From NCBI GenBank assembly GCA_950295325.1, contig OX485804.1:17918001-17982000 (forward strand): a DNA stretch of 64,000 nt, written 5' to 3'. The notes under the pieces were generated by a model. The model made no database searches, had not been told where the DNA came from, and saw only the letters and a program-made list of their open reading frames with translations. The position numbers and the translations under genes were made by a program. This DNA comes from Polytrichum commune. Lineage: Eukaryota > Streptophyta > Polytrichopsida > Polytrichales > Polytrichaceae. Positions 19,759 to 62,648 of this stretch are shown here, in pieces (position 1 is the stretch's first letter; the number at the start of each line of letters is the position of its first letter).

Positions 19759-22429
19759 GTTGATTATTAGTATATTTAAAATTAGGAAAGTGATTGAATT
19801 GACTCAATGTCTTTCCTATCAACTGCAAAGTTGTTGAAGCACCTCATAATTTTCCTTTCTTTGGATGTTGGGATAGAAGGAGAATAAGTATGTTGGACCT
19901 TGTTCCATTTAAGGAACAAAGTGAACTCTTGTGTGAAGATTCTTAATGACCAAAAGATGGCCATCACAACTTCGAAAGTTCCAAGTTCCAAAACTTGTAC
20001 ATGGAAGCCTTGCCCACATCGCCCATGCATGAACCGATGTTTGTCTAACTTTTGCAAGGCTTCTCACGTGCCAACTTAAGTAACGTCACATGTATGGCAT
20101 TGGCCTTCACACTTTCCACATGGCTTGGATATGTACGAGGTACTTGCTATACAATTGCAGACTTATCTCATCAAACCGTGATGCTTTTGAATTATTATAT
20201 TTTTTCTATTTGAGTGCACTCAATGGACAATGGAATGAGATATGACGTTAGTTATTCTAGTAGAGGGTTCGACTGTGTAACATGTATGGCATGGCCTTCA
20301 CGATTCACACGATTTGGGTATTAGGTACGTGATCTAGACTTGGACACTCAAACCCTCAAATTTTGATATGAAAGATACTTAAAAATTATCGGGAAAAACA
20401 CATCCTTCAACAAGATATATCCCCAATATGTAATCTATGCATATCTTTTCAAAATGACACATGCTTCCATTAATTATCATGTTGCAAAAATGAGCACATA
20501 AACAATTGAAGAACAAACTAACACATTCACACAACCCAATGTTTTAACCTAATTAACGTATGCAAAATTAAGGACCACACACCTCACAACACCATCCCCT
20601 CGTGGCTACTCCCATGCACATGTTACATACCAATATATAAATGTTCAATCCCAACTAGGATGGACAATACTACCAACGATTACATCATGGCATGAATATC
20701 AGGCACTCTCCACACAACAAGTACTAAACACCTCCAATACCTACATATCCTCAGTTTGAGCACATGGAAAAGGATTTGGATAAAACGTATTCATTGGGAT
20801 GTACATCTTCACCCAATAGCATTCATTTTTGAAACACCCATAAGAGTAACAATATTGAGGCGTTCTTTGGATTTGTTTTTGCGTGCCTTACTAATGATGG
20901 CCCCTTGTTCTTCTTCGTCCTTAAGAGGAAATTTCTTAGGACAATGTGAGGATGTATGCAACTTCCTATGATTTTATCTTGTGCAAGAATTTGTGGGATT
21001 TCAACGAATTGTCATTGTGCTCTTCAATGGATTTGTCTTTGATGGGACATTATATATATGTCTATACAAATCTATATAAACACATATATATATACATATA
21101 AAAACACACATATATAAAAACATATAAATATATGTATTCTCCCTTTTATTTTGTATTGGCAATTTTATTTTATGTTTGACCATTTAACACTAATTTTTGG
21201 TTTGCAGACTCGGCGTTTCCACATTATGTTGTACGTGCGTTATAATCCTAGGTTAAAGTACATTTGTCAAAAAAAGAAGATGCAAAGTCTATATACAAAA
21301 TATCATCCAGGCACTGAAGGTATACTTCAATATCACATTCATTTGCACATAACTTATGAACATAAAAGTGCCATGGAGAGAAAAATACTGTGAATCCTTG
21401 CATAATTTGATTGAGGCTTTGACAACTCCTTAATTTGTTGTCCTCAATGCCTATGCATCTACATGTTGGTTTGTGATATTTTATCAAGATGTTCACTAGT
21501 TTTCTTTAAAGAATTTTTAGTGGCTTATGCAAAATAATTGACTCAACACATGTTTCATAGGCAAGTGTGTCTATCCATGCTTACAAAAGGAGTGGTCACC
21601 ATTTAGTCGCATAAAATGAGGTTTCAACATTGTTTTATGCTAATTTGTCTCCTTTTGCGTGATTCAATGTCAAATCCCATTGGAAGAGTATCTAAACCAC
21701 AAATTGTTGATATTGATTTTGACAGCGAGCTTGTGAGGAAGGTTGCAAGGAAAAACCGATTGAGTATGTAAGTTTTGCAATTCTATCATTGTTTTTCCAA
21801 ACTTGTGTTTGTGCATAATTATTTGTATCCTCACAATCATAATTTGATTTTGCAAGAAGAAAAATAAACTGAAAAGAATGAATTCTCCTTCACATAGGGG
21901 TCTACCAGTATATGGTTTAGTCTATGGCAAACACACCTACACCAACTCCTCCCCATAGGTCCACCAAAATTTCTCGTAGCCTTTTTGTAGATGATGAGGC
22001 AGTAGAGTGCATTAATCTCAATGATTAGGTTGTAGTAGTTTACAAACATCTAGATAGGTATCAATACCATCCACTACATTTTTGTTTACTTTGGATTGGA
22101 TATTTTGTGGTTTCAGATGTGAGAATGTTTGAATTATTTCTAAAGTACCCCAAATTTGTGGACTTACATTTGTATGAGCAAATCAATGTTATTTCCTAAA
22201 CCATTCACCCATGGTTTTTGGAACATTCTTCATATTTGGCATGCTGATCATATTTTTTTGGTTGAGTCTAATATCACATCAAAAACTCTATTGCAAACCC
22301 TCGTGCCACGTCTCGTTACTAGAATTTTAGAATAGAGACTTTAGGCATTTGCTTGGACAATTACAATATGTTGAAACTCCCCATTCACTTTATTATGACA
22401 TAAAGGCAACGGTCAAGCAGAGTTGGACA
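19759..22429. other. No recognisable gene; AT-rich microsatellite
   Basis: About 2.7 kb of AT-rich sequence. An (AT)/(ACAT)n-type low-complexity block spans about 21047-21140. ORFs of 60-91 codons are present on both strands but none has a motif or splice context. Confidence 0.5.
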
Positions 22430-30427: not shown

Positions 30428-31900
30428 TTAATTATGGTTTTGTAAGTCTGTGATGGGTTGTTTATTTTCTATTCGTCTTTTGTGGATTAATATTGAGTGT
30501 GCATATTGTATGGCAATTATGTTGAGTTGTTTGAATGTGTTCCTAATTTGTGATGTAGGAAGTTTAAGCTTTGTTTCGAGTTCGTTCATTGAGGGGATGT
30601 GAGTTGTGGCTCTAGCACCAGATGCTAATACAATAAGTGGGGCTATGTTCCAACCCTTTGCGATAATATTGTTTATGAGTGGTTGATATTTTGTAATTTT
30701 TCGTTCTCTTGTTTCATTTGAGAATTTGTCGTTGCAGTAAGTAAATTCAATGAATTGTATTGTGATTGTGGGTGTAGGTGCTTCGGGTGGTGGAGAATTG
30801 TATGGGTGGCCTAGGACACATATTATGTCGGGTTTGAGCCGAGCGTTGCAGTGGCATCTTTGGGTGTCGCATGTGCATGGTAGTAACCATGTTGGTACTG
30901 TGTTTTCTTGGGGTAGATCATTGTATGTGCCCGCATTCATAAGTATGTAGTGTCTTGTTACTTTGTTTGAAACGAGGAGTTTGCGTATTTCCCATACTGC
31001 TTTGTTATGCCTATTTGTTATAAGCGCATGGATGTGTTGTTGTTTGCATTTTAGGAGTACATGTAGCCATGTGTCTGCTTCTGGTGAGTTACAAATAGGG
31101 CATGTATGGGATGGGTATGCATTTCTACCAAAGAAGAGTTGTTTCCGAGCATGTCCCATATATTGTCCAGTTCGGAATTTTATTAGACATGTTTTTTGTC
31201 TATCTGTGATGACTGGGTTATTCCAGAAATCATTAGATAATGTTTTGTCTATATCTTTGTTGTCTAGCCATTTGTGTAATTGGTGTGTTTGGGTAGCTAT
31301 GAGGGCTAGGTTGTGTTTTTTGTCATATTTAGTGATGTATTTACCAAGGTGTCGAATGGGGCCTTTATCCGGCGTTTCTTGCATTGAGTGCCACCAGCCT
31401 TTTTGGAGGTAGTACGGCGTGGGGTGGGCATGTTCGTGTGTTGCTATGGCATCTCTATGGTCTAATTCGCACCCCATTTTGGCTAATTTATCCGCTTGTT
31501 CATTGCCACTTATATTCGTGTGGGCTTTGACTTTATGTAGTGTGGTGGTTTGTGTTCGGGATTGTAGCATTTTAATTATGGATTCTAGTATCTTCTTGTC
31601 TGGATGACTATTGTGTGAGGTTGGGTGTTTCATTTGTGTGTTTAGAAGGTATAGAACATTAAGGCAATCCGTGAAAATATGTGCAGGTTCATTGTGATAT
31701 GTAGTGGTGAGGAGGCATATCGTGTGATAGATAGCCATTAGTTATGCTCTTAGTATATTTTGGAGTCCTGGTAGTCTTTCTGCAATTTTAAGGTTTTTGA
31801 AAGGGTTGTATATGCCGTATCCGGCCTTTTCTCGTCGCCAGTGTTCTTCGGTTATTGCTTTTGGTGGTATAAATGACCCATCGGTATAGTAGCAAAATTG
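30428..31900 (-). pseudogene. LINE ORF2 C-terminus: RNase H, zinc finger, restriction-like endonuclease
   Basis: RNase H starts with YTDGSF near 31885 and continues through FTDCLNVL and HKVKAHTNISGNEQADKLAK. This domain degrades RNA in RNA/DNA hybrids. At the position expected for the catalytic Glu the frame reads ILRA-stop-LMAIYHT (stop at 31741-31743). Next come CPICNSPEADTWLHVLLKC (a CCHC finger) and CTCDTQRCHC (a CxC...CxC knuckle). The restriction-like endonuclease follows: LKPDIICVLG, QFIEFTYCND and KITKYQPLINN supply the PD, E and K..KY pattern that nicks target DNA in R2-like elements. The 436 codons from 31738 to the stop at 30428 are open. The second LINE at 60.9 kb has the same domain order. 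Confidence 0.85.
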
Positions 31901-31959
31901 TGGTGGGTATTTAAGGGGTAGGCATATGTCATGATTTGTGATGGGTGGGATATTGATAT

Positions 31960-32775
31960 TTTGAATTGGGGGTGGGGGGGGGGGGTGGGTATGGAAGTTG
32001 AGACCATTTCTTATTATGGTTTACTGGTGTGTTTATTGGCGTGGGAGGTGCGGTTGTGTTGAATATGGTGGGTATTTGTAAAGATTTGGCAATATTGTGC
32101 ATACGGTCCACGTAGCCTATAGGGTCGATGGGTGTAGTTTTGTGGTGTATACATATTATTCTAATGTCACGACTTTCTGTTCGGGGTTCGATTCTTAGTT
32201 CCGGTGGTATTGTGGGTTCGTCGTATGTAATGGTATCTGCTCTGAAGTGTGTGATGACGTGTGAGTCTGGGAAAGGACCTGTGTGTGGATGGAGGTTGTG
32301 GTACCAGTCAGGGTCAGTTGTTATGAGTAGCGTTATTGTGTTTGGGTCTTTTTTGGCCGCAAGTCTTGCCCAGTGGAGGGCTTGTTGGGTGTCTTGTTCT
32401 GTATGAGGGTGGGCGTATCCATTCCCAGTCCATTTATGTTGGAATGTTGTTCCTATTGACCCGAATACTTTATCTTTGGGGAATGGGGAAGAGAATTGTT
32501 TTAGTGAGGTGGGGCATGTCACTGGTGATGAAAAGTGTGAATGGGTAATTTGGAATGAGTCGATAATGTGTTCTAAGATGGCATTTGGTAGTGTGTATTG
32601 GGAGAGTTTGAGGGGGTCGTTTTTGGGCATTCTATATTTGTATCGTTGATATAGCTATGCAACTTCCTTTTCAAATGATTGTATGGGGGGTTCGAAATTG
32701 TGTGGTTGACTTAGTGTGTTTTGGTATTGTTCCCATAGCCATTGTAATCTTTGTTTTGGAATGGTAATTAAGTGG
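31960..32775 (-). pseudogene. LINE ORF2: PCIF1/CAPAM-like methyltransferase domain
   Basis: The reading frame (with stops at 32778-32780 and 32655-32657) runs from LQWLWEQYQNT through LYQRYKYR and LPNAILEHIIDSF, then HFSSPVTCP, FSSPFPKDKVFGSIGTTF, WTGNGYAHPHTEQ, ALHWARLAA, TLLITTDPDWY and RIICIHHK. The PCIF1/CAPAM family has matching landmarks in the same order (an RY helix, LP..VF, FASPLN, a C/S-S-x-FPDxD-x-x-FGSxG block, NPPF, a P-x-W strand). That enzyme puts N6-methyl on the cap-adjacent adenosine of mRNA. The catalytic NPPF position reads HPHT here, so this copy, or the lineage, may be inactive. The frame ends in a poly-C run (31966-31986), and RNase H continues in another frame. The match is by eye. 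Confidence 0.6.
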
Positions 32776-33012
32776 CGTCAATCGTCGTCAAAGATATGTG
32801 ATTCACCATGTTGGCTTTGGATGGTGGTTTGTGTGCAGGCGATGTCGGTGTCTGGGTTACATTCATTAATGTTAATGTGGCATAGGGGTATAATGTGTGG
32901 TGGAGGGATGTGCCTTGTGTCTCTTATTTGTGCTTCATCGAAGTTTTCTTTTAAGATGTTGGTGAAGTGTTGATTTTGTTTGTGTGTGTAATATTGTGTT
33001 AGTATTAGGATG

Positions 33013-33690
33013 TTATGATTTATTGTGTTTTGGTTCTCCCATGGGAATAAGTCTCTTTGGGGGAAGCCATTTGTTATATATTGATCCATTTGGGAGTATC
33101 CATTGACATAGATAGGAAGTATATTTTTTTGTAATTTTGTTTTTATCTTTGTAGTTGTGGGGGCGGTCTTGTATTATGGAATGTATTGGGAATTGTGTAG
33201 GATTTTTTGGAATGTGCGGTGGTGGTTTTGGGTGTTCGGGCGGTGGAGGTGGTGGAGGTGGTGGGGGGTGTTCAGTGTGTCTTCTTGTTTTTGGATCTAT
33301 GTGGTGGTTTTGTATTTTGTATGCATTTTGTAAGGTGTTTGGTAAGGCGTGTGTTGGGCAATTATTTGAGCATTGGTTGTGACATGTCGGTTCGCAAAAG
33401 AGTATCCTTGCTTGGTTTAAGGCGGCTTTAATTGTGTTAGTGGGTGTGTCATAATAGTATTTAAATTCATCGTTGGTCATTAATTGTGTGCCATTTGGGT
33501 GAGTTATGTGTTTAAGTTCAGTTATATGGTGTAGTGTAAGTTTGTGTAGATATTTTAGAGAGGTTGTGGGGGTTAGTGTTGGTGTATGTTGTGCTTGGCG
33601 CATCCATTGTGTTTCAAGTGGTGTGGGGAGAAGGGGGAATTTTTCGAGTTTGCTTCTTAGATGGACACCAGTGGTAGTTTTTAGTAGGTA
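33013..33690 (-). pseudogene. LINE ORF2 linker: Cys cluster and Pro-rich spacer
   Basis: This segment continues the RT frame past a single stop at 33691-33693. It contains CEPTCHNQCSNNC, four cysteines spaced by three residues each (likely metal-binding), followed by a run of about ten prolines from a CCACCT-type repeat at 33235-33270. A frameshift near 33050 leads to the frame used by the methyltransferase-like domain. No family was recognised. Confidence 0.6.
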
Positions 33691-35172
33691 TCATGTTCTT
33701 GTGATTGGTGACCTTTTACAGTCATGTTGAGATATGCGTGGTAGGATTAGTGATCCTCCATGTTTGGCGAGTATGTGCTTTGTTAATCCGTTATATATTT
33801 TCCCAAGTCTCCCTTTATCATTGAGGGCGTTAATGAGTTGTTCTCCTATACATGTGATGTAGGCATTTTTTAGTGAGAATGCTTTTGTGCCGAACATTTC
33901 TTGGGGAAGTTGTGTGACTGTATTTGACATACATTTTGGCAGGCCACATATAGTTTTGTGTATGGAAATTATTCTTTTATCAAGTTTCTTAATGGCGGGA
34001 AGCGAATAGGGGACTGTATAGAAACTATAGGCAATGCCAGCTCTTATGACTGTATCAACCATTTGTATTTTCTGTTTCATAGTGGCTGGGCATATGGTTA
34101 ATAATTTACATTGCTTGACTAGTTTAGTTGTTGTTATGTGTGTTTGTATTTTCCATTGTAGTGATGAGACTAAATTAATTCTAAGGTAGATATATGGTTC
34201 GTGTTGGCTTAGGGTAGGGATGGGTTGGTTCCGGAAATTTATATTAGCGTTTTCTAATTGTGTTTTGAAGGCTTGTGGTTTTAGCTTGGATTTGTTGGGG
34301 CATCCTGTGACTGCGCATTTTGGGATGCCCATGTCCATTCCTGCCCATTCGCAGTATCTATCGAGTTTGTTTAGTTGGAATTGGAGGGATGCCAGGTTAT
34401 TGGATATTACTGCTAGGTCATCCGCGTAGGCTGCAGAGCTTAGTTGCGTATAAGAGGTTTTAAAGGTGTATCCGTTATTTCCTCGCTGTAACCATCTAAG
34501 GAGTGGTTCAAGAAAAATGATGAAAAGGTACGGACTTAGTGTGTCTCCTTGTATAGTTCCTCTTTGTATAGGTATTGGTTGTGTTTTATCGAAGTGTTCT
34601 CTGGTGAACGTGGTAGTGGACTGTGAGTAGATATTACCTATTAAGGCTACCGTATCTTGTGGGTAGTCTAGGTCCTTCATAATAGCGAGGAGTATAGCAT
34701 GGTCAATAAAGCCGAATGCATTTTCAAAGTCTATGTATAGGATATAAATGTCTTGATCGGTGAACCTTGCATCATCTAATGCGGCGATGATAGTTTGTAG
34801 TTGTCGGGCAGTGCATCGTTCAGCTCGGAAACCTTCTTGACTATCGTGTAGGATTTGATATTTTTCTCCATATGCGGAGAGAATGCTTGTGAGCGTACTA
34901 GTAAATAGTTTGTATATTGTATTGGCTAATGCAATTGGTCTATGGTTGGTAAGTTGGTGGGGGTTTCCTTTTTTGTATAGGAGAATTGTGAGGCTTGTTT
35001 TCCAAGATTTGGGTATTTGTTTTTGTTTGTTACAGTGTGTAAAGAATAAGAAGAGAAGCTTGTGGAATCTTGGCGGCATGTTTTTTAGTATGGCGTTAGG
35101 GATTTTATCAGGTTCAGGGGTTTTTCCGTTGGCCAAGTTTTTGAGGCATATGTCGTATGTTTCTTGGTCCAA
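33691..35172 (-). pseudogene. LINE ORF2: reverse transcriptase domain
   Basis: The 493-codon open segment holds the complete RT palm. Motifs in order: the NHRPIALANTIYK block, QEGFRAERCT, motif A YILYIDFENAFGFID, motif B PIQRGTIQGDTLSPYLF, and motif C AAYADDLAVIS with both catalytic aspartates intact. The thumb region follows (GMDMGIPKCAVTGC and beyond). It synthesises cDNA by target-primed reverse transcription. The upstream part of the domain between 35173 and 36046 lies in a shifted frame, so the start at 35172 is only the first ATG of an open block, not a true start. Confidence 0.93.
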
Positions 35173-36046
35173 GTATATGTGTAAGGAAATTGTTGATTCC
35201 CCCCGTTTTTCTATGGTATATCCGTTTAGGTCATGCCACGGGCATTGTCTAACACCACATATGCAGTCTTGTGTGTGGTCTGGTTGATAATGACATGTTG
35301 GTACGGTGGGTCTGTTGCTGATTGATTGTTGTGCGTGTATTTCTTGTGCAATATCTTTTGGGTTTGTAAGGATGTTATTATATCTATCTATGAGACAGTC
35401 GAGTGGGGGGTGTCGGTATTTTTAAAAACTTTTCTGTTTATTTTCTTGGGACTTTTGTCGTATAGTTGTTGGTATTTAGATATAATTTTTTTGATTTGTT
35501 TGTTGGTGTATTCTGTCGTGATTTTTCTGGCTTTGTTTTTAGCTTCTTTTGCTATTGTGGCTAATTCTTCTATCCACGAATCGTATTCTAATAATGAGTC
35601 GGGTGGTGGGGGTATAGACTTGTGGGTATGGCTATGTATTTCTTGAGTGATAATAGGGTGGTTGCGCCAATTCGGATTGTTTTTTGTGATGTAGATTATT
35701 TTACGGATAAGGTGGTAGGTGGATAGGTTTAGTTTCCATTGTTTTTGGGGTTTCTTGGGGAGGTATCCACCTTGTTGGGCAATGTGGTTTGGTAGTGTGG
35801 GAATAGGTGGGGCACTGCATGTTTCTAGGACCGCGTTGGTGATGTTGTCTGTGATAGTGTCAAATGAGGTACAGGCTAGTTGCCATTGTTCATTTGTGAG
35901 TTGGTTGTTTTTTAGTAACTGTGTAAGATCGTCTATTTGGTTTGAATGTCTTTCAAAAAATGTAGTGTGGAATTTTTCTAGTTTTTCTTGTGGTATGGGA
36001 TTTAGTAGCCTAGGGGGTATTTCAGAGGGAATGGGTGGTGTCTTGG

Positions 36047-36979
36047 CTATGAGTGTGTTTGGGGGATTTGTAGTTGTATGGGTAAGTGGTTGGAGTTTAG
36101 CTGAATATTTTGGTTTGTACTTGAGGTGTATTGGTTGTTGTTAGGGGTTTTGATGAAGAAACCGTCTATTAGACTACTTTGGGTGTAGTTGTGGCCTCCT
36201 TGTCTGGAGAATGTTGTATTTGTTGGGACGTATGATAGTTCGAGGTTGGTTATAAAAGACTGCCATTTATAGTCCTCTATTTGTGGGGGAGTGGTTTGTT
36301 GATCATTTTGTCTACCTATTAAGGCGATGTCCCGATTAAAGTCTCCGCATAGTATGTATGTGTGATTGGGGTGTGTATTTATTTGGTTAGTTATGACATT
36401 TTGTATGGTAGGAATAAGAGGTATGTCTTCCTCGTGTGAGGGCATATATAAGTTTATTAGGAGCCATGGTTGTAGGGGTTGGTTTGCTATACGTGTTATT
36501 TGGAGGAATGGAGATATATCTGCGGGTGTGGGGATTTTGGAAAGGTTACATGGGAATGTATGCTTTTTATGTATTAGTAGCAGTAGGCCGCCTCTATGAC
36601 CTCTGTATGTCATTCTTTGACGTATAATTCTTGTGATGTTGTGCGTGTTGTTAAAGAAAAATTTGTATTGTGGGAATAATCTTTCGATGTACTTTGTAGA
36701 TTTTGTGGCAGATAACTTAGTTTCTTGTATGGTGATGATTGAGGGGGGTTTTTGAGGGTTTGCAATTAAGTCTTGTAGACATGGCATGGCGGTGTTCAAT
36801 GAGGAGGCATTCCATGTTATAGCATATGTTTTTTGACTTGTTAGTGGAAGTGGTCCGTTTGGTGGCGATGAGTTTTGTGTCGGGATGGGGTTGGGGTGAG
36901 TGTATTCGTTTATGGGTTCGTTATATCTTAATGCTTCTATTAGTAGTTGTCGAGGTAAGTATGTGAATGCTTCACTCAT
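36047..36979 (-). pseudogene. LINE ORF2: APE-type endonuclease domain
   Basis: The segment matches the exonuclease/endonuclease/phosphatase fold: ITWNASSLN, the metal-binding Glu in ITIQETKL, GGLLLLIHK, NLYMPS, ILCGDFNRD, the TFSRQGG loop, SLIDGFF and the final SNHLPI. The active-site SDH is SNH here, a substitution that may weaken activity. In APE-type LINEs this enzyme nicks the first target strand. The true frame extends upstream, past an in-frame stop near 37080, to the poly-C frameshift at 37251-37260. Confidence 0.88.
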
Positions 36980-37217
36980 GTCTTGAATGTTACGTGTGTT
37001 AGGGTTTAGGTGAATGTAGTCGTATAGTTTTGTGTGTATTGTATCGGGAGGGGTGATTATATCTTTATATATGTCGCGGAATTATGTGTATGGATGTGGG
37101 GTGCCTATGTGTCTTTCTGGGGGATTGGGCAGTGTTGTCATTTTTTCAAGTAGTTGTGATGTCCAATCTTGTTGTGGTGGGTGTTGTAAGTATGTGTTAC
37201 ATATTTCCGTGGAGGGG

Positions 37218-38807
37218 CTAATTGTTACGATTAATGCGTATATGATTCGTGGGGGGGGGGTGGCTTATGTGTTGTTGTATGTAGTTGTATAAGTATGGTA
37301 ATGCGGTTGTTGTGTGTTCGTGTAGTTGATGTGTATTTTGGAAAAGGGGGCCAAATGTTTTGGCTAGATGTTGGTATTCAGGTTGGAATTTAATCGTGCT
37401 TGGTAAAAAGTATGTGTTTTGTCGTCTTTTATGGGCGGCTGGGTGTATTTGTAGTAGGTTAGGCATGGAACCTGGGTTAGGGTGAATATCGCCACATTGT
37501 AGTATGAGTAGATTTTGTTGGATATGATGTTTATTTATTATGCTTAATTGTAGTTTTTTATTAGGAATTTTTGTAACATGTTTGGATTGGGTTATGTGAG
37601 GTGGGGGGGATTTTGGTCTAGTGTTTGTAATGTTTGTATATTTGGTTGTATGTGAGATGGGGTTTGGTTGGTTTAGTGGGGTTAGTGGGGTTAGTGGGGT
37701 TAGGTTATTGTTTGAGAGGTAAGTTGTGTGTTGGTTATAGTGTTGCTTACATGGGTGTAGAGGGTGTCCATAATATGGTTTAAGTGTGGGTGTGTTGTGT
37801 GTGAGGTTTTGTTTGTGCTTTTGGGGGTGTTTTGTTATGAGACTTTTGAGGGTGTTTGTTTGAGGTCCCGGGTTTGTTTGGATATCCCCTCCTAGGAGGA
37901 TGATTATAGAATTATTCCATGTGTAGTATTGGAGGAGTTTAACTTTGGGGTTTTTAAGATGCATGTGTGTTATGTGTTGAAATTTACCTATGTATGTTAT
38001 GGTATAGATGGGTGGGATTAGAGAGTTGAATTGGTTTAGTAATGTGGGTGTGATGTTGTTTAGTGTGTTGTGCATGTTATTGGGGATGTTGTATGGAGAG
38101 GTGGTGGGGGCTTTGTGGTGTGAGTAGTTTGTGTTGTGTAAGAGTGTTGTTGTATTTAGTGTGGGGTGTGGTGTGAAATGGCCATATGCTATTGGTATAT
38201 TACATGTAATGGTAAGTATGGTGGAAAACTTTTGGGTGTTTATGCCCTTTTTATTTATGAGTAGAAAAATACATATGATATGTGTGAGTATCGTCCATAT
38301 ATATACTATTGGTTTGTTACTCATGAGGGTGGTTTGGTCCTTTGTGGTAGCTTGGTAATATTTTTTATTTATTTGATTTAGTCTAATGATGTTGGCGAGT
38401 GAGGCCAATGTACGGATTTTGAGGAATGGGAGTGCATGCTTTTTATTTATATAAAAAAAGTAGATAATACAAAGTATGTGTGTGAGTATCGTCCATGTGT
38501 GTAAGTGGACCCATATTATTAAGACGATAAGGGCATAGATGAGAGTAGTAGTGAGTATCTTGGTGCGTGTACACTTTTTATTTATATATGTATAAACTAG
38601 GAGATAAATGTTGTATGTAATCATCGACCATGTGGATGCTATTGGATAAGTGTGCTTTTTGGTTATGTTTATATTTGTTGTGTTACGGATCTTGGCTAGG
38701 AGTATTGTAGTGGTGGTAATGTATAACTCTTTATTTATAAGAAAATAGAAAATACAATTCATACGGATGAGACACTTCAATAGGCATGCTAGGAGCTTTC
38801 TATTCAT
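37218..38807 (-). pseudogene. LINE ORF2 N-terminus: hydrophobic repeat leader and two 2A-like motifs
   Basis: The ATG at 38807 lies 7 nt after the ORF1 stop. The first ~310 residues are strongly hydrophobic and built from imperfect repeats: INKE, INKKCTRT, INKKHALP, INKKGINT, two preceded by WTILTHIxCI. This predicts several membrane-like helices. GDIQTNPGP (37863-37889) then matches the 2A consensus, which makes the ribosome skip a peptide bond before the last Pro. A second motif, GDIHPNPGS (37467-37493), has Ser in place of the final Pro. 2A motifs at the N-terminus of ORF2 are known from other APE-type LINEs. The frame breaks at poly-C 37251-37260. Confidence 0.75.
37863..37889 (-). other. 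2A-like ribosome-skipping motif
   Basis: GDIQTNPGP preceded by a hydrophobic IIILLG stretch matches D-(V/I)-E-x-N-P-G-P apart from Q for E. It would separate the hydrophobic leader from the enzymatic part of ORF2 during translation. Confidence 0.75.
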
Positions 38808-39235
38808 TGGGATGTCATTGATCTTTGTGGAGGCTTGATGAGGGGCTTCGGAGGTGTATGCCGGTAAACCCTAGAGGTGCGAGATATGTGTTGATGTCTC
38901 CCGCATATGTGTTTGCCATGGAAGTACTTGGTGCTTGCGTGAGTCTTGCGATGTGGGGGTGGGGAGGTTCCGGTGATGTGGCGGCCAATGTTTGCATGAT
39001 GTTATGGATACGGTTGTTGGATTGTTGAAATTCCATCGCCATGGCGCTCATGATGCTATGCATGTTAGTTGCATGTGCCTTGAGTGTATCCATGGATGCT
39101 TCAATTTGCTTATCCGTGTTGAGGTTGATGTTGTTGGTTAGCGTGGTGAGCTTGCCATCCACCGTCTCGACTAGTTCCTTGATGGTTTTGGTGAAGAACT
39201 TCACACCTTTTATAGCCCATTAGCTAGCTGGGCTA

Positions 39236-39771: not shown

Positions 39772-42719
39772 TGATGCCTCTGCAAATCCTCAAGAGAACG
39801 ACCCATCTTTTTAGAGGAATGTAGAGAATATAGCCCACTTTGAGTAAAGACATATCAAAAGATGTAAACATGTAACCAGTTGCACTTGGATGCATTTGGA
39901 TATGGACAGATGATCTCAACCCTAAAAAATTTATGGCAGTGGTAGGGATGACATGGTTGGGCCTTAGCTTGAGCCAATTTAGTTACATGACTTATCTTTA
40001 GCTAGCTAATAACTAGCTGGGCTAGCCCATATTATCTGAGGCCTCGATCTAGCCATAGCTGGACTAGCCCATAAATTTTGAGGCCTCGATCTAGCCATAG
40101 CTAGGCTAGCCCATAATTTTTCAAGCCGCGATCTAGCCATAGCTGGGCTAGCCCATTTTTTTCGAGAACCATTTTCAGCCATAACTATTAGCTATTAGGT
40201 TAGCCGCTAGCCCAAAAAGTCTGTGGGCTAGCGGCTGTACAAGGTCTGAAGAACTTCTCCGACACGAGGGGTGAAGATGCGGCGGTGTTGCTCATAGCTT
40301 GGGCTTTTTGGGCTATGACTTCACGAACGGGGGCGTGTGCGAGGCGTATGGCCGTTTGGTTAGGTTCGGTGCCGTCTATGCTCCCCTTGTGTGGGATGAA
40401 GTCCACCCGCCTTCCTAGGATGTACGTTGATTTCCTTAGCCACTCCGTGTAAACCGCCGCATTAAGGCATTGGATGTGGCACCATCCGGCGTGCCGATCT
40501 TCTCCGTGTATGGATTGGTGACCAAAAGTGATGCCGGTGATGTTGTCCTCTCCGAATAGCTTCTTGAGGGTCTTTGTGATGGTCGATTGAGCTTCCCTTT
40601 GTGGTAAGTTGTTGGCTACTAGCGTGGTGCTAATTCGGAGCTCCGAGATGTTGCCCATGCCTTTATCCCTGGTGATGTTCACTCTAAGGCGTTCGGAGTG
40701 GTAGATGAGGCCGTTGTTGAGGATGTCATCTCTAGATTCTTCGGTGGTGAGGGTGATGAAGGCGAAGTCTTTCTCTACCTCCGACTTGGTGAGTGACAAG
40801 ATTTCTACCTCTCGGCCGTCGTAGTAAGATTCTCTCATGAGTGTCCTAAGTATGTCGACGGCCGTGTTGTTGCGGAGGGCTTCGCCTTTGAGGTGGAGCC
40901 TCATGTTTTTGGCCTTCGTGATGAGTTCGAAGCCTTTTTCTACCTTGCCAATGACTAGCTCTCCATCCCCCATTGCCATGACAAAGGCTCGTTCCCCCCG
41001 GAGGAGGGCCAAACCGTCTCTCTTCGGGTGTTGGAGATGAAGTTTGATGAAGCCGGCCCAATTCGTTGTGACCGTATTGATGCCTATGTCTATTGGGTTG
41101 GAGTATGCGGTCCCTAGGGGTATATTCATGTGTCGTAGTCGCTCCATGCATGCGGCTTTGACCTCCTTTCGGCTAAGTCTCTTGTATTCTCCGTCAAATC
41201 GTATGGTAACATGGAATCCCTCGGTGAGACCCGTGTCTAGAGAGATCTTCTCATACATGGGGATTTGTGTGAAATGTAGGTGTTGTCCGGGGACCGCATC
41301 CGGGCGCTCCGTAGGATAGAGAATTTGTTTGGTTCGTGGGAATGCCCTCCGAACCGTTCTAAATTCATGGATTTCGTTGACGGGTGTTCCTAGGGTGTTG
41401 AACTCTTCATTGCTACGATTCTCCTTCAATTCCTTCTTACCCCTTTGTATGGAGATTGCCTCATGCATTTGGAATCCTGTCCACTTTTGGCCAATCATGT
41501 CGATTCCTAGAGTAGCGATTCGCTTAGATCTCGTGTATGGTGAGGGTGGTATGGTCTTACTTGGTATTGTGGGTGTGGATGTCGCGGTGTAGTCGTCGGC
41601 TTTCCTTCTCTTGGTGGTTTGGCTCTCCGAGATGTCTTCGAGTCGCGGGTTACGGTAGTGTAGCGTTGGTGGCGTGCTCTCAGTATTGTGTGCGGATTTA
41701 TGTGGCGTCAATTGTGCGGCTTGGATGGAGTTTCTCTCGGATGATATTTGAAGGGAGCTTCCTCCTCGCTCGGGAGACACATTTTCTAGTTGGGCGTCCA
41801 TGTCGAGGTCCTCTTCGGCGGCTTGCACATGTGAGCGATTCTGTTGGTGTGATGGTGGTGATGTGTGAGAGGTTGGCGGCTGGGCATGGATTTGCTGTCG
41901 GAATTCCATGTATTGGTTGCTGAGCTGGTGTGGCGGTTGCTGGTTGGGTTGGGCCATGTTGTTTGGAGGTCGGGTGTTGGGTAGTGGGTCAGCTCCTGCT
42001 TGAATAAAGTGCCGTTGGAGGTCGTTCGTCTCGGTAGCATTGTGAGTTTGGTTGTGGATGTGCCTGTTGAGTGCTCCTTGTGGCTTCGGGGGGTTAGGTG
42101 TCTTGATTCCGAGTGTGGTCGTTGTGTGGAGGTTGTCGTGTGCCCGTGTTCGGTTGGGGCCTCCTCTTCTGTCTGTTGTACCTGTTGTGTGTGATCTGCA
42201 GGGGCCACTTTGTGGGGTGAATTTGTTGTTGAATGGATGGTTTCTAAGATGGTGGTGTGCAGGTTGTGTGCGTACCTTGTTTTCTCGGGGTGGGTGGTTG
42301 TGCTTGTTGGGATTGGGACTTGGTGTGGTGTCGCTAATATGTGTTGTGGTGGGTGCAGGGATCGTTTGTGGTTGCAGCGGCGTACCCAGTGCTTCTGGTG
42401 GGGTCTTCTGTCCTGTCAGGTTCGCAATTCGGTGGGGGCTTCGTCGATCGACTAACTGCGCTGCTACTAGTGTGTGTTGGGCGTGCTGTGTGGGCCTGGC
42501 ATGTGTGGGCGATTGCTCATGCTTTCCTATTCTGCATGGCTCAATTGAGTTAGTAATCCTGTTGCTGCATGCAATGTGGGGGGGTTGGTAGGGGGGGTCT
42601 GTGTTTACCTTTGTGATTTTGTGGGAGAAGTGTATGATGTTGTAGTTGGGGTTGCCTACTGCTCCTTCGATGTGTGTGCGTGAGGTGTCGAGGATGGATG
42701 TGGTGCACTGGGGGGGCAC

Positions 42720-44601
42720 TGATGTCTCTGTCGCGGCGCTGGTTGCTTCTTGGCTGCGGTGTTCGTTGGCGGTGGTGGCTCCTGATTTCGTGAGAAATCG
42801 TTGTGGCTAGTGGGTGTGACTATGTATAACCTTGGAGGGTGAGTGTGTGAGAGAGGTGGATGGGAGGAGAGTGGAGGAATGGGGGTGGTGGGAGCTGTGT
42901 TCGGCTAATTTCTTGAGAGTTCGCTGAAGCATGTGGGTGTGACTGTGTGTAACCTTGGGGGGTGAGTGTGAGATAGAGGCAGATGGGAGGAGAGTAGAGG
43001 AGTAAGGGTGGTGGGAGCTGTGTTCGAAGTGCTTGCTTGAGAGTGATGGGCGGTGAGTGCTATTGGGTGGGGAAGGGAGTGGATTATGTAGTGGTTTGCC
43101 TTGCCTAATGCGGGTGGGTGTGTGTGGGCCGTGGTCGGCTGTGTTTGGCCATTGGCTGTTTGTGTTTGTGATTGTGCAGTCTGTGACAGATGCTAACTTT
43201 GAGTTTGAGTTTGAGTTTGCTGTAATGTGAGTTGTGGGAGGTCGTGGGAGGTGATGCGGCGGTATTTTGAGGTGGCGTTGGTGTGGTCTCCTGCGACATG
43301 GCGTCTACCTCCGATCAGGTGAGGGTGCCCCTTCGGGGCTGGGAGGGTTTTTGTTTTGCTTTGTTTGGAGTTGTCGTTTATATGTGATCATCCCAAGCTA
43401 TGTTTGTTTGGTGTGCGCTCTGGGTTGCAGCGGGAGGTTTTGTGAGTGGGGGATTGAATTGTGAGGTTTTGTGTGTTTGAGGAGGAAGGTTCTGTAGTGT
43501 TTTGGTGGAGTTTTAGTGCTTGTTGTGGGATTTGTGTGGCAGTCGGCTGTTGGTGTCGGTGAGTGGTGCATGCTTCGGGGGGCAGCCCTCTGCTCTTGAT
43601 TCCTTTTTCAGAGCTCTTGTTGGAGGATGGTCGGGAGGCGGCAGATGTAAGGTGTGTGACTTCTTTTTCGGAGCCCTTGTTGGAGGATGGTGGTGAGGCG
43701 ACAGATGTAAGGTATGTCTTTGTTGGCGTTGTTTTGCGTGTGTCCTTTGTGTGTTGTATGTTGCGATTGTATGATTGGTGTGTGAGGTGTCCAGCTATGT
43801 GTGGATTGTGGGGGGGGGGTTGTGATTGTGTGAATGTTGTATGAAGGTGTAGCGGAGTGGTCTGTGTGTGGATACGTTTTGCAAGATGAAGCTTTAGGGT
43901 TAGGCGGTACCTTTCTGTGCGATGTTGATCTTGTGTTGATGGGGGCTTGTTGGGAGCGAGTTGTGCATACTTGTTGGGGATGTTTGTGGAGCGTGCGGGT
44001 TGAGGTGGTCAGTCCCGACAGTTGCTGATCTTGATTCCGCAACTCCAGATGCTCGTGAGGGGGGCGGTGGCGTTGCAGCAGTTCCAGCAGCAACAGCGAC
44101 GGCGGCTCCATTTGATTTGTGGGGGAGGCAGTTGGATGGCGTGCAGGAGATGTGAGAGGCGAGGTCCTGTATCGGGCTGAGGGGAGGAGGAGTCTTCTAC
44201 TACCTTAGCTTCAGATCTAGGGTTAGGGTATCGAGGAAATGCATCAAGTAGGGTGTGGCTTTTGTGGCCGAGTGTATTGTAGAGGCCAATTAGTGCCCAA
44301 AACACTAATAAAATTGTTGTTGACACTAACTTCCATTGCTTCAAGTGTCTCCTGTTCGGTATTCTCCGGTTGCACTGCCGCACATGTTCAAGTGGTTTTG
44401 GTGTTTGGGCGTCGCCGATATCCTTCATATCTGAGCTCTGATGTGCAAGTTTCTTCCGGGCTTGGGAGTCGAGGTTCTTCGAGTCAGCGCTCCTATGTGT
44501 AGGCCTTGTCTGTGCTTGGGCTTCGCCGAGGTTCTGCGATTCTGAGCACCGAAGTGCTCCGTCCGCCATCACGAGAGTTCTCCCCCACATCGTCGCATGT
44601 T
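42720..44601 (-). promoter_or_regulatory. LINE 5' UTR with three sets of tandem repeats
   Basis: In coding direction the element starts near 44601. It contains three degenerate ~55-bp units at about 44400-44570 (each with CTTGGG and TCGCCGA or TCGAGG on the plus strand), a ~59-bp pair at 43603-43716 (CTTGTTGGAGGATGG), and a ~122-bp pair at 42811-43026 (TGGGTGTGAC..GTGGTGGGAGCTGTGTTCG). Repeated monomers in LINE 5' UTRs often act as internal promoters; that role here is inference. Long ORFs in this part (for example 44009-44716) are repeat artefacts. Confidence 0.6.
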
Positions 44602-60165: not shown

Positions 60166-60859
60166 TATTTTCCATCATAGAGGCAACTGTATCAACAATT
60201 TCAGCAGAAAAAACAGGTTTTGAATTCATATGTGGAAGATGGATATAGATATTAGTGGAGCATAGGGCTGTGTGAAAACTGCAGTCTGATGCTGGAGTGA
60301 GCAAGTACCTTAAGAATTTTCCCACTAACAGTTCTAGAACCTTTCCTCAACTTGGACCCATATGCTCAAATTTCCGCAGTAAGATTATGTCAGGATTCCA
60401 CAAGTCACCTGCAGTCAGAAATTAGATTATAAAGCTATATATGTACCTAACAGTCCTTAGTTCCATCTTAAGCCGCAAAGTGTGAAATATTTGGTATCCC
60501 TGCATGCAAAAGCTCTGTATAGGTGTGCAGAGCAAGTATTGGTATCCTCCTCCTAGGGTGATATCTACTACTTTTTATGGAGCTTCAGTTTCAGGATGCA
60601 ATTTTCTTCAAGTCACATGCAGAGACTCCAAGCTGGAAGTTTTTTTTTTTACAATCTTATTAGTCAGCAACTTTGGAATTGTGAAGATGAATATGGAACC
60701 CTATTATGTGGGGTGCATTTATGTTGCGTGATTGTTGTTTCAGTTTAATTGTTCCAACAATTAAACAATTGTCTGCTTTTGTAAATATATACTAAAATAG
60801 AAAACCCTTATTCGGTTACTTAGTTCACCTACTTGTATATGTATGTTTTCAAGTCAACA
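60166..60859 (+). other. HMT 3' flank / probable 3' UTR
   Basis: No further gene is visible. The 3' UTR probably lies in the first few hundred bases; TGTAAATATATACT near 60780 is a possible polyadenylation-region sequence, but no canonical AATAAA was found. The stretch ends where the second LINE begins. Confidence 0.45.
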
Positions 60860-61891
60860 CTGCAGGATCAGGTGTATATAGCCCCAATAATAATACCCAA
60901 ATATCAAAAAGATAACCAGGCTACCAAATAATACTCAGAGCTGAATTAAACGCAATACTCATTGCCATCAAAAACATAAAAATTACCCAAATAGACACAC
61001 ATATATTTATTGATAGCCTTAACAACGTGTACGTAATAAATAACCATATACAACATCCAACATCACAACATAGAAACTACTCATAGCAGCCATAGTGAGA
61101 CAAATATATTGGACCCCACACAAAATCCACATACATAAAGTCCGAGCACACTCGGGCATCATTGGAAATGAATTAGCCGATGAACTAGCAAATGAAGGGA
61201 CAACCAAAGAAAAACCAAAAAGAACCCCACCATTCACATAGCCCATCCGACCCCATATTGGCTAGCTAGCTCCCCAACAACCACACACGACAGAGCCATC
61301 CGCAACCTACGCACCTTCATAACAAAAGAACATGGAAACCAAGTAACAACCTTTGCCAAAAATAAATTCCCATTAGTAGACAAATGGCTATCAAACACCC
61401 AAATAATCCAGAAATTCTCTAACCATTTTTGGCATAATGACAAAATACCAGATACCCAAATCACCCAAACACTAAAATTTAGATATGCCCAATATATGGG
61501 CAACCACATGAAAAATATATTTTGGCCCCTGACACAACAAAATCCCAATTGTACACTATGCCATAAGAACGAACGAGACACGTGGCCCCATTTACTATCT
61601 ACATGCGAACACCCATACTTAAAAGGGCTTCGAATTGCAAGACATAACAAAGCCGTACATCTTATCACCCAGACGCTACAAGCCAATAAAAACACAAGGT
61701 TCCTTACCATGGTCAATGCAGGCCATCTCAACAACCGACCACAAGAACAAACAATACCCGTCTGGCTACTACAATGCACATGCCACCAAAAGCCATGCCA
61801 TTGCCAAGCCAAACTTAAACCGGACATCCTATGCATGATCGGAGCCCCAAATCATATAACTTTGCCTATACCACCATCACCCAGTGACACA

Positions 61892-62272
61892 GCAAGAGAG
61901 AAGAAATTGAAATGCCCGTTCGACCCACCCTTGGTATTATACCCTCTGGGCATAATAACAGTGGTGCAGGACTATTAACCCTTCTTGGGTGGGCACTGTA
62001 GTTATCGGGGTAATCAAGGTGGATGCCTCGTATGGACGTTGTGTTCTAATGTTAGTGACTTGGCATGTGCTATGTGGTTTTGCTTGTCATGAGATTATGG
62101 CCCACAACCCTAGCTTGGGTTGGAGTGGTTCCTTAGCTGTCATTGGCATTTAATCTTTTCTTTTCATCCTAATTATTAATTTGTTGGTGGGTATTTGGGG
62201 TTATTATGGTAGTTGTGTATCTGTTGGTAGTGGCTCGTTGTTTTCTATTCTCCTTTTGTGTAGGATTATGGA
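61892..62272. mobile_element. 381-bp insertion within the second LINE
   Basis: Coding homology stops after PPSPSDT at about 61890 and resumes at TIQFIEF from about 62280. The insert is flanked by CAGTGACACA (61882-61891) and CAGTCACACA (62273-62282), a 10-bp near-repeat with one mismatch. It is G/T-rich with no ORF. A pyrimidine tract followed by TGTAG at its right end looks like a splice acceptor but may be chance. Its class is unknown. Confidence 0.5.
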
Positions 62273-62648
62273 CAGTCACACAATACAATTCATTGAATTC
62301 ATATATTGCCACGATAGATTCCCCGAACAAGCCATCACACAAAAACACGCCAAATACGACCCACTAAATAACACTATCTAGAATAATGGTTGGAAAACCA
62401 ACCCCATCATAATAATTACAGCTGGAGTACGAGGAACCATACATGAACACTCCATTAAGAAACTCACATAACTAAAAATTCCAAAATCAAACATCAAAAA
62501 ACTCATGAAGGACATCCACCAAAACACCATTAAATACCTCACCTACCTAGTACTAAACAAACGAAAACTAGACAAACAAACAAACAAACAAACACTTGTC
62601 CCTCAACCCTAACAAAAACGGACTACTAGCAACCCATCAGAGCCCACC

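Follow-up and report, generated by a model that had tools for sequence, protein, structure and literature searches.

A conserved CAPAM/PCIF1-like domain without the NPPF motif lies between reverse transcriptase and RNase H in a plant LINE lineage

Introduction

Retroelements that carry DNA methyltransferases are known, among them DIRS elements with DAM and Ty3 and DIRS elements with cytosine methyltransferases (PMC6338049). Among the LINEs, the Dualen group is defined by the presence of an APE-type endonuclease together with a restriction-like endonuclease (RLE) (PMC4640811), and the table of a review places RandI in green algae (PMC3747384). PCIF1 (CAPAM) is a cap-specific adenosine N6-methyltransferase that modifies the beginning of animal mRNAs. 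It contains NPPF, described as a characteristic motif of adenosine methyltransferases whose mutation reduces PCIF1 activity (PMC6318281). A second source states that NPPF mutations inactivate PCIF1 and cites fly Pcif1 as an influence on gene expression and fertility even though it is catalytically dead (PMC10544176). Accounts of the wider distribution of PCIF1 differ, one stating that it is found only in eukaryotes (PMC8868631) and another placing jumbo-phage enzymes closest to the PCIF1 clade (PMC7824862), and the plant m6Am writer has been described as unknown (PMC9100520). The corresponding Pfam family PF12237, named PCIF1_WW, is reported to represent a CAPAM-like methyltransferase rather than a WW domain (PMC7641849).

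Here we analyze a window of 64,000 nucleotides (the whole stretch of DNA under study) in which a broken LINE copy carries a CAPAM/PCIF1-like domain. How LINE proteins recognize their own RNA and complete its 5' end are long-standing questions. In the open-licence literature, mostly titles and the openings of abstracts, we found no account of a LINE with a CAPAM-like domain. The genome comprises 408 Mb in 64 contigs, and the seven largest contigs encountered total about 406 Mb. It is of plant type, because contig C1 begins with TTTAGGG telomere-type repeats and the genome has 1,281 matches to a pattern of four TTTAGGG units (619 forward, 662 reverse) as compared to 1 in the control, in agreement with a sequence-only reading of the window that had called the element a plant LINE.

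Results

The domain resides between the reverse transcriptase (RT) and RNase H of the broken copy, all on the minus strand, as a single uninterrupted frame of 241 amino acids (31929-32654) that includes a proline-rich tail. The frame contains, in order, LYQRYKY, LPNAILE, HFSSPV, FSSPFPKDKVFGSIG, YAHPHTE, ALHWA, DPDWY and IICIHH. The motifs named in the sequence-only reading were thus all recovered in the order given, and its interval of 32775-31960 yields the wrong frame when translated from the first base. HFSSPVTC maps to 32514-32537, FGSIG (within FSSPFPKDKVFGSIG) to 32451-32465, DPDWY to 32301-32315 and IICIHH to 32142-32159. AHPHT at 32400-32414 is the counterpart of the catalytic NPPF of PCIF1 in our alignments, and this site could be read in 98 of 99 fetched loci. 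A helix region upstream (32655-32777, RHLITIPKQRLQWLWEQYQ...) is in frame with the domain; the stop at its end in the window copy, directly upstream of LYQRYKY, breaks the correct frame, and the remainder of the LINE is spread across several frames. In sister copies the last part of this helix region aligns with PCIF1.

We searched Pfam with hmmscan and found that the window frame matches PF12237 over residues 4-111 (E=4.3e-8, 33.4 bits), above the curated cut-off of 31.1 bits, so that the Pfam check proposed with the sequence-only reading came out in its favor. Two sister copies score higher (L013, E=2e-13, 50.7 bits; L014, E=3.5e-11, 43.4 bits), and three copies of a second family, family B, fall narrowly under the cut-off (E=3.5e-7 to 3.8e-7; 30.3, 30.4 and 30.3 bits). 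In searches of PDB, the single window sequence matched PCIF1 by phmmer at E=0.055, followed by two unrelated chains (1.2 and 1.3), while profiles A2 and A1 each matched PCIF1 alone (E 0.075-0.095 and 0.44-0.84, respectively). Profile A3, built from 13 copies of both families, gave two matches up to E=10 among 177,635 distinct PDB sequences, and both are PCIF1 (E=0.0035 and 0.086). Aligned by hhalign to two vertebrate PCIF1 sequences, the 13-row profile scored 52.4 (probability 93.7%), as compared to 11.7 for the reversed target, 21.3 for the best of 60 column shuffles and 23.7 for the best of 300 further shuffles. Family A, to which the window domain belongs, scored 48.7 by itself and family B a weak 25.6 (probability 8.6%).

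A chance or low-complexity resemblance would accommodate the phmmer, A2 and A1 values (0.055, 0.075 and 0.44), but it is hard to credit when L013 reaches 2e-13 in Pfam, the three family B copies reach 3.5e-7 to 3.8e-7, A3 finds only PCIF1 in PDB and 300 of 300 shuffles remain at or below 23.7 against 52.4. The similarity in the window is not a chance one, because the PF12237 score is accompanied by sister copies with long open frames in which the domain occupies the same place. By these profile comparisons the LINE domain is homologous to the PCIF1 methyltransferase domain, with 20-24% identity to vertebrate PCIF1 in the alignment. Conservation with respect to PCIF1 is poor in the loop before the LP motif, which we assigned to an active-site loop that a review names, and an AF2 prediction for the 241-residue domain, made from the single sequence without an alignment, had a mean pLDDT of 38.4. 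We rejected a reading of PF12237 as a WW domain, the family name being a misannotation according to PMC7641849. No WW family appeared among the Pfam matches of the L013 long frame, searched as six overlapping pieces with E up to 0.1.

The modules of ORF2 can be located in the window copy (minus strand throughout). An APE-type endonuclease frame (36047-37081; PF14529 E=1.7e-8, PF03372 E=1.8e-6) lies upstream of the RT frame (33691-35421; PF00078 E=1.5e-25), whose YADD motif is at 34417-34428. A thumb/Cys-rich and proline-rich region in two overlapping frames (32778-33690) leads to the CAPAM-like domain. The N-terminal part of RNase H (31742-32020, with YYTDGSF) has no Pfam match by itself and was located by tblastn to the RNase H of L013 (31915-31433). 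A further frame (30428-31741; PF00075 E=9e-8) holds the rest of RNase H, a CxxC zinc motif (31091-31102) and a C-terminal PD...E...K domain resembling a restriction-like endonuclease. Two motifs read from the sequence, GDIHPNPGS just before the main ORF2 protein (37467-37493) and GDIQTNPGP (37863-37889), are 2A-like by comparison with the 2A consensus; they share one frame before ORF2, which suggests ribosome skipping. The L013 long frame unites a 2A-like GDIETNPGP, APE (PF14529, PF03372), RT (PF00078), the CAPAM-like domain and RNase H (PF00075 E=5.6e-16), and one NPGP lies within the long frame in 6 of 7 long copies. The order of modules in ORF2, as read from these frames, is 2A-like, APE, RT, Cys-rich, possible chromodomain-like, CAPAM/PCIF1-like, RNase H, zinc motif and RLE-like C-terminus.

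Six aligned copies are invariant in the zinc motif and in a PDI...FIEFTY...K..KY block, which we take to be the restriction-like endonuclease motif. Searched against PDB, the RT is nearest to R2 (7.7e-30) and then L1 (1.3e-16), and the profile of the C-terminal domain gave only two matches, 8gh6 and 8ibw (R2 proteins), both weak at E=1.2. The element appears most like the Dualen/RandI group, an assignment made by its set of domains.

The possible chromodomain-like module has a YLCQW...W core at 33067-33114 (minus strand). L037 (6151-6420) and L014 (6698-6967) have counterparts of this YLCQW...W...L segment, placed after the RT/Cys-rich region and before the CAPAM-like domain. None of six sequences reached the PF00385 cut-off of 25.1 bits; three of them, the window's not included, gave weak scores of 18.2, 14.8 and 12.2 bits. 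A profile of the region found chromodomains in 7 of its 10 PDB matches, weakly (E 0.16-0.47), and scored 25.3 by hhalign against at most 18.2 in 200 shuffles, with a target that had been picked as the best match.

Upstream of ORF2 the window contains an ORF1 C-terminal part (38815-39219, minus strand; 70.5% identical over 129 aa to ORF1 of L038, a family B copy), which was the extent of ORF1 scanned against Pfam. The ORF1 body (40200-42806, minus strand), about 1 kb from the C-terminal part, is 81% identical to L038 over 326 aa. In their ORF2 modules L014 and L015 share 84-95% identity, falling to 78-80% in two short linkers. Over partial ORF1 stretches, L014 is 78% like the window and only 34% like L015. 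The histories of ORF1 and ORF2 disagree, which suggests an exchange of modules between families. By eye, the 3' ends of family A copies (L013-L016) show, after the ORF2 stop, a GC-rich inverted repeat and then a short (CTAT)n tail.

The domain is widespread in this genome. With the window domain as query, family A had at least 151 matches (150 scored, out of 1,941 candidates), and all 150 places scored in a PF12237-based search, out of 697 candidates, exceeded the cut-off. Family A thus has at least 150 domain-bearing places. The same PF12237-based search found none in 14 control genomes, and among relatives sought in viral_contigs (15 and 4 pattern matches) and genome_contigs (30) none was confirmed by tblastn. 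Some copies have open frames of 2,300-2,900 aa, the longest being 2,924 aa.

Family B is represented in the window by an apparently 5'-truncated copy that extends from RNase H onwards (60847-62573, plus strand); its full-length sisters carry the same CAPAM-like domain. The C-terminal region of family B had at least 150 matches (150 scored of 4,575 candidates), a count of that region and not of the CAPAM-like domain. Of 23 family B stretches retrieved, 22 contain the domain (L037-L039 and 19 of 20 others), which lies at an identical position in ORF2 in the three long copies. Elsewhere in the window, a short remnant (20420-20623, plus strand) is 33% identical to the ORF2 C-terminal domain and possibly represents a third, older family.

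Amino-acid identity between L013 and L037 is 0.40 for the CAPAM-like domain, 0.40 for RNase H, 0.40 for the C-terminal domain and 0.59 for RT, so that the domain has diverged between the families as its neighbors have, RT excepted. Because both families hold the domain and its divergence matches that of these neighbors, the simplest account is that it predates the split between families A and B. The domain resides stably in the LINE lineage, and we rejected a recent capture unique to the window copy in view of the family A places and the family B copies.

We read the site corresponding to NPPF in 98 copies of both families (99 fetched; L080 gave no match), taken from ranked match lists and so not a random sample; L001 is the window itself, and L008 and L009, equal in score and identity, look like one copy on two contigs. 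NPPF was found in none (0/98). In family A (n=76) the site reads HPHN (49), HPHT (15), HPPN (4) or HPQN (4), with HPHK, HLHN, HPNN and HPHS once each, and 75 of 76 fit HP[HPQN][NTKS]. In family B (n=22) it reads FPTD (17), YPTD (3), HPKD (1) or FPTY (1), and 20 of 22 fit [FY]PTD. The first position is always H in family A (76/76) and always F, Y or H in family B (22/22); in family A the third position is H in 67/76 and the fourth is T in 15/76. A genome-wide pattern aimed at an intact Y-A-N-P-P-aromatic site gave 14 matches as compared to 9 in the control.

The surrounding motifs are retained. FSSP occurs in 69/76 family A copies and YSSP in 21/22 family B copies, and F-G-[SA]-x-G in 73/76 and 21/22 (94/98 in total, including FGAxG). 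FxSPxxC and FGSxG rank with the best-conserved parts of the domain, and the HWAR..AA helix is conserved to the same degree.

The sequence-only reading had proposed that a LINE captured a PCIF1/CAPAM-like domain, perhaps to mark its own mRNA or to evade decay or sensing. Homology and residence in a LINE are borne out, and methylation of its own mRNA is unsupported, because NPPF is absent from 98 of 98 readable copies in both families. That reading had also taken HPHT as a possible sign that this one copy is dead and had looked to sister copies for the original site; no NPPF was recovered from either family, and the loss belongs to the lineage. Judged from the alignments, every copy read has other residues in place of the catalytic ones, and the data lend no support to cap methylation.

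The CAPAM-like domain is under purifying selection. For the CAPAM-like segment dN/dS is 0.10 in the pair L014-L015 and 0.10, 0.16 and 0.13 in three family B pairs, with many of the dS values near saturation. For these four pairs, values are 0.06-0.12 in RT, RNase H and the C-terminal domain (where computable) and 0.07-0.17 in APE, while the linker after the CAPAM-like domain has 0.31-0.57 in the three pairs that yielded one. In the distant pair L013-L037 the segment has a dN/dS of 0.23; for L013-L014 and L013-L015 no value was obtained for the domain because synonymous sites are saturated. The purifying selection suggests that the domain is probably functional for the element despite its missing catalytic motif.

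Selection of this kind would also be expected of an active enzyme with a rearranged site, in which the ends of N-P-P-F are swapped (H/F/Y-P-x-N/T/D) and which would mark the RNA or cDNA of the element as an adenine methyltransferase. Consistent with this alternative, the site is itself conserved, FGSxG persists in 94 of 98 copies (FGAxG included), and the HPPN of four family A copies mirrors N-P-P-aromatic. However, among the 76 family A sites, 67 have H at position 3 and 15 have T at position 4, and to our knowledge the swapped motif occurs in no active enzyme. NPPF itself is described as a hallmark of adenosine methyltransferases, and PCIF1 is less active when the motif is disrupted (PMC6318281). 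We consider a rearranged methyltransferase improbable. A fuller form of the idea, that the LINE captured a CAPAM-type enzyme whose swapped active-site ends made it either an adenine methyltransferase or a reader of capped 5' ends, acting on the LINE's own RNA as target-primed reverse transcription proceeds, seems to us just as doubtful.

Two genome searches detected no canonical host PCIF1 gene, although a gene split by introns could escape them. An 85-aa vertebrate fragment as query matched 113 of 113 scored candidates (best E=0.0023), the top five overlapping places of the LINE domain, and a 106-aa C-terminal fragment including NPPF gave one candidate with two stops (E=0.15).

Discussion

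We propose, with a probability of roughly 0.55, that the domain is a catalytically inactive CAPAM-like module that serves for binding within the ORF2 particle of a Dualen/RandI-like LINE, its ligand most likely being RNA. The domain would no longer methylate, and FGSxG would still serve a pocket for a SAM-type ligand. The module would hold RNA beside RT and RNase H. This may be the transcript of the element itself, bound at its capped 5' end in the way that capped RNA is bound by the parent enzyme; for the LINE domain, the idea of cap binding comes by extension from that enzyme's family. Such holding could provide cis-preference or aid the completion of 5' ends. A pseudoenzyme that binds is suggested because NPPF mutations lower or abolish PCIF1 activity and the catalytically dead fly Pcif1 is cited as still having effects. 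Repurposing for RNA binding, which the sequence-only reading had offered as its second option, is a candidate role that fits the data better than methylation.

Methyltransferase-like pseudoenzymes frequently serve as scaffolds, and the module might instead be purely structural or make protein contacts (with ORF1, chromatin or Pol II, or as a spacer between RT and RNase H), binding neither SAM nor RNA. Its position between RT and RNase H, next to the possible chromodomain-like region, and the strong divergence of family B would suit such a role. The high conservation of FxSPxxC and FGSxG would be needless for a pure spacer, yet the HWAR..AA helix is conserved equally. We hold this explanation to be a less probable one that deserves some weight, and retain RNA binding by an inactive CAPAM-like module as the preferred reading.

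A conserved relative of a cap-adjacent methyltransferase in ORF2, beside RT and RNase H, offers a concrete candidate, open to experiment, for a module that recognizes RNA or its 5' end. In addition, annotation by PF12237 alone could miscount LINE copies as cap methyltransferase genes.

By description, the element shares with Dualen/RandI an APE upstream of RT and RNase H downstream, together with a putative RLE-like C-terminus with PD...E...K; compared with Dualen in the same way, the window lineage may add the CAPAM-like, possible chromodomain-like and 2A-like modules. The domain shares with PCIF1/CAPAM the order helix-RY, LP, FxSPxxC, S..F..D..FGSxG, AxP site, helix and a strand ending in W. 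It differs in being embedded in ORF2, with no WW domain found in the L013 long frame, and in lacking NPPF in 98 of 98 readable copies. Drosophila Pcif1 is likewise a CAPAM-family protein, with function in the absence of catalysis (as cited in PMC10544176); the fly protein is encoded by a host gene and is not part of a transposon. The Ty3 and DIRS methyltransferase elements, like the window lineage, are retroelements with a methyltransferase-type accessory domain (PMC6338049). Theirs are DNA methyltransferases, whereas the window lineage is non-LTR and carries a relative of an RNA methyltransferase without the catalytic motif. To the known retrotransposons with DNA methyltransferases it would thus add an RNA-type, methyltransferase-like pseudoenzyme in a non-LTR element.
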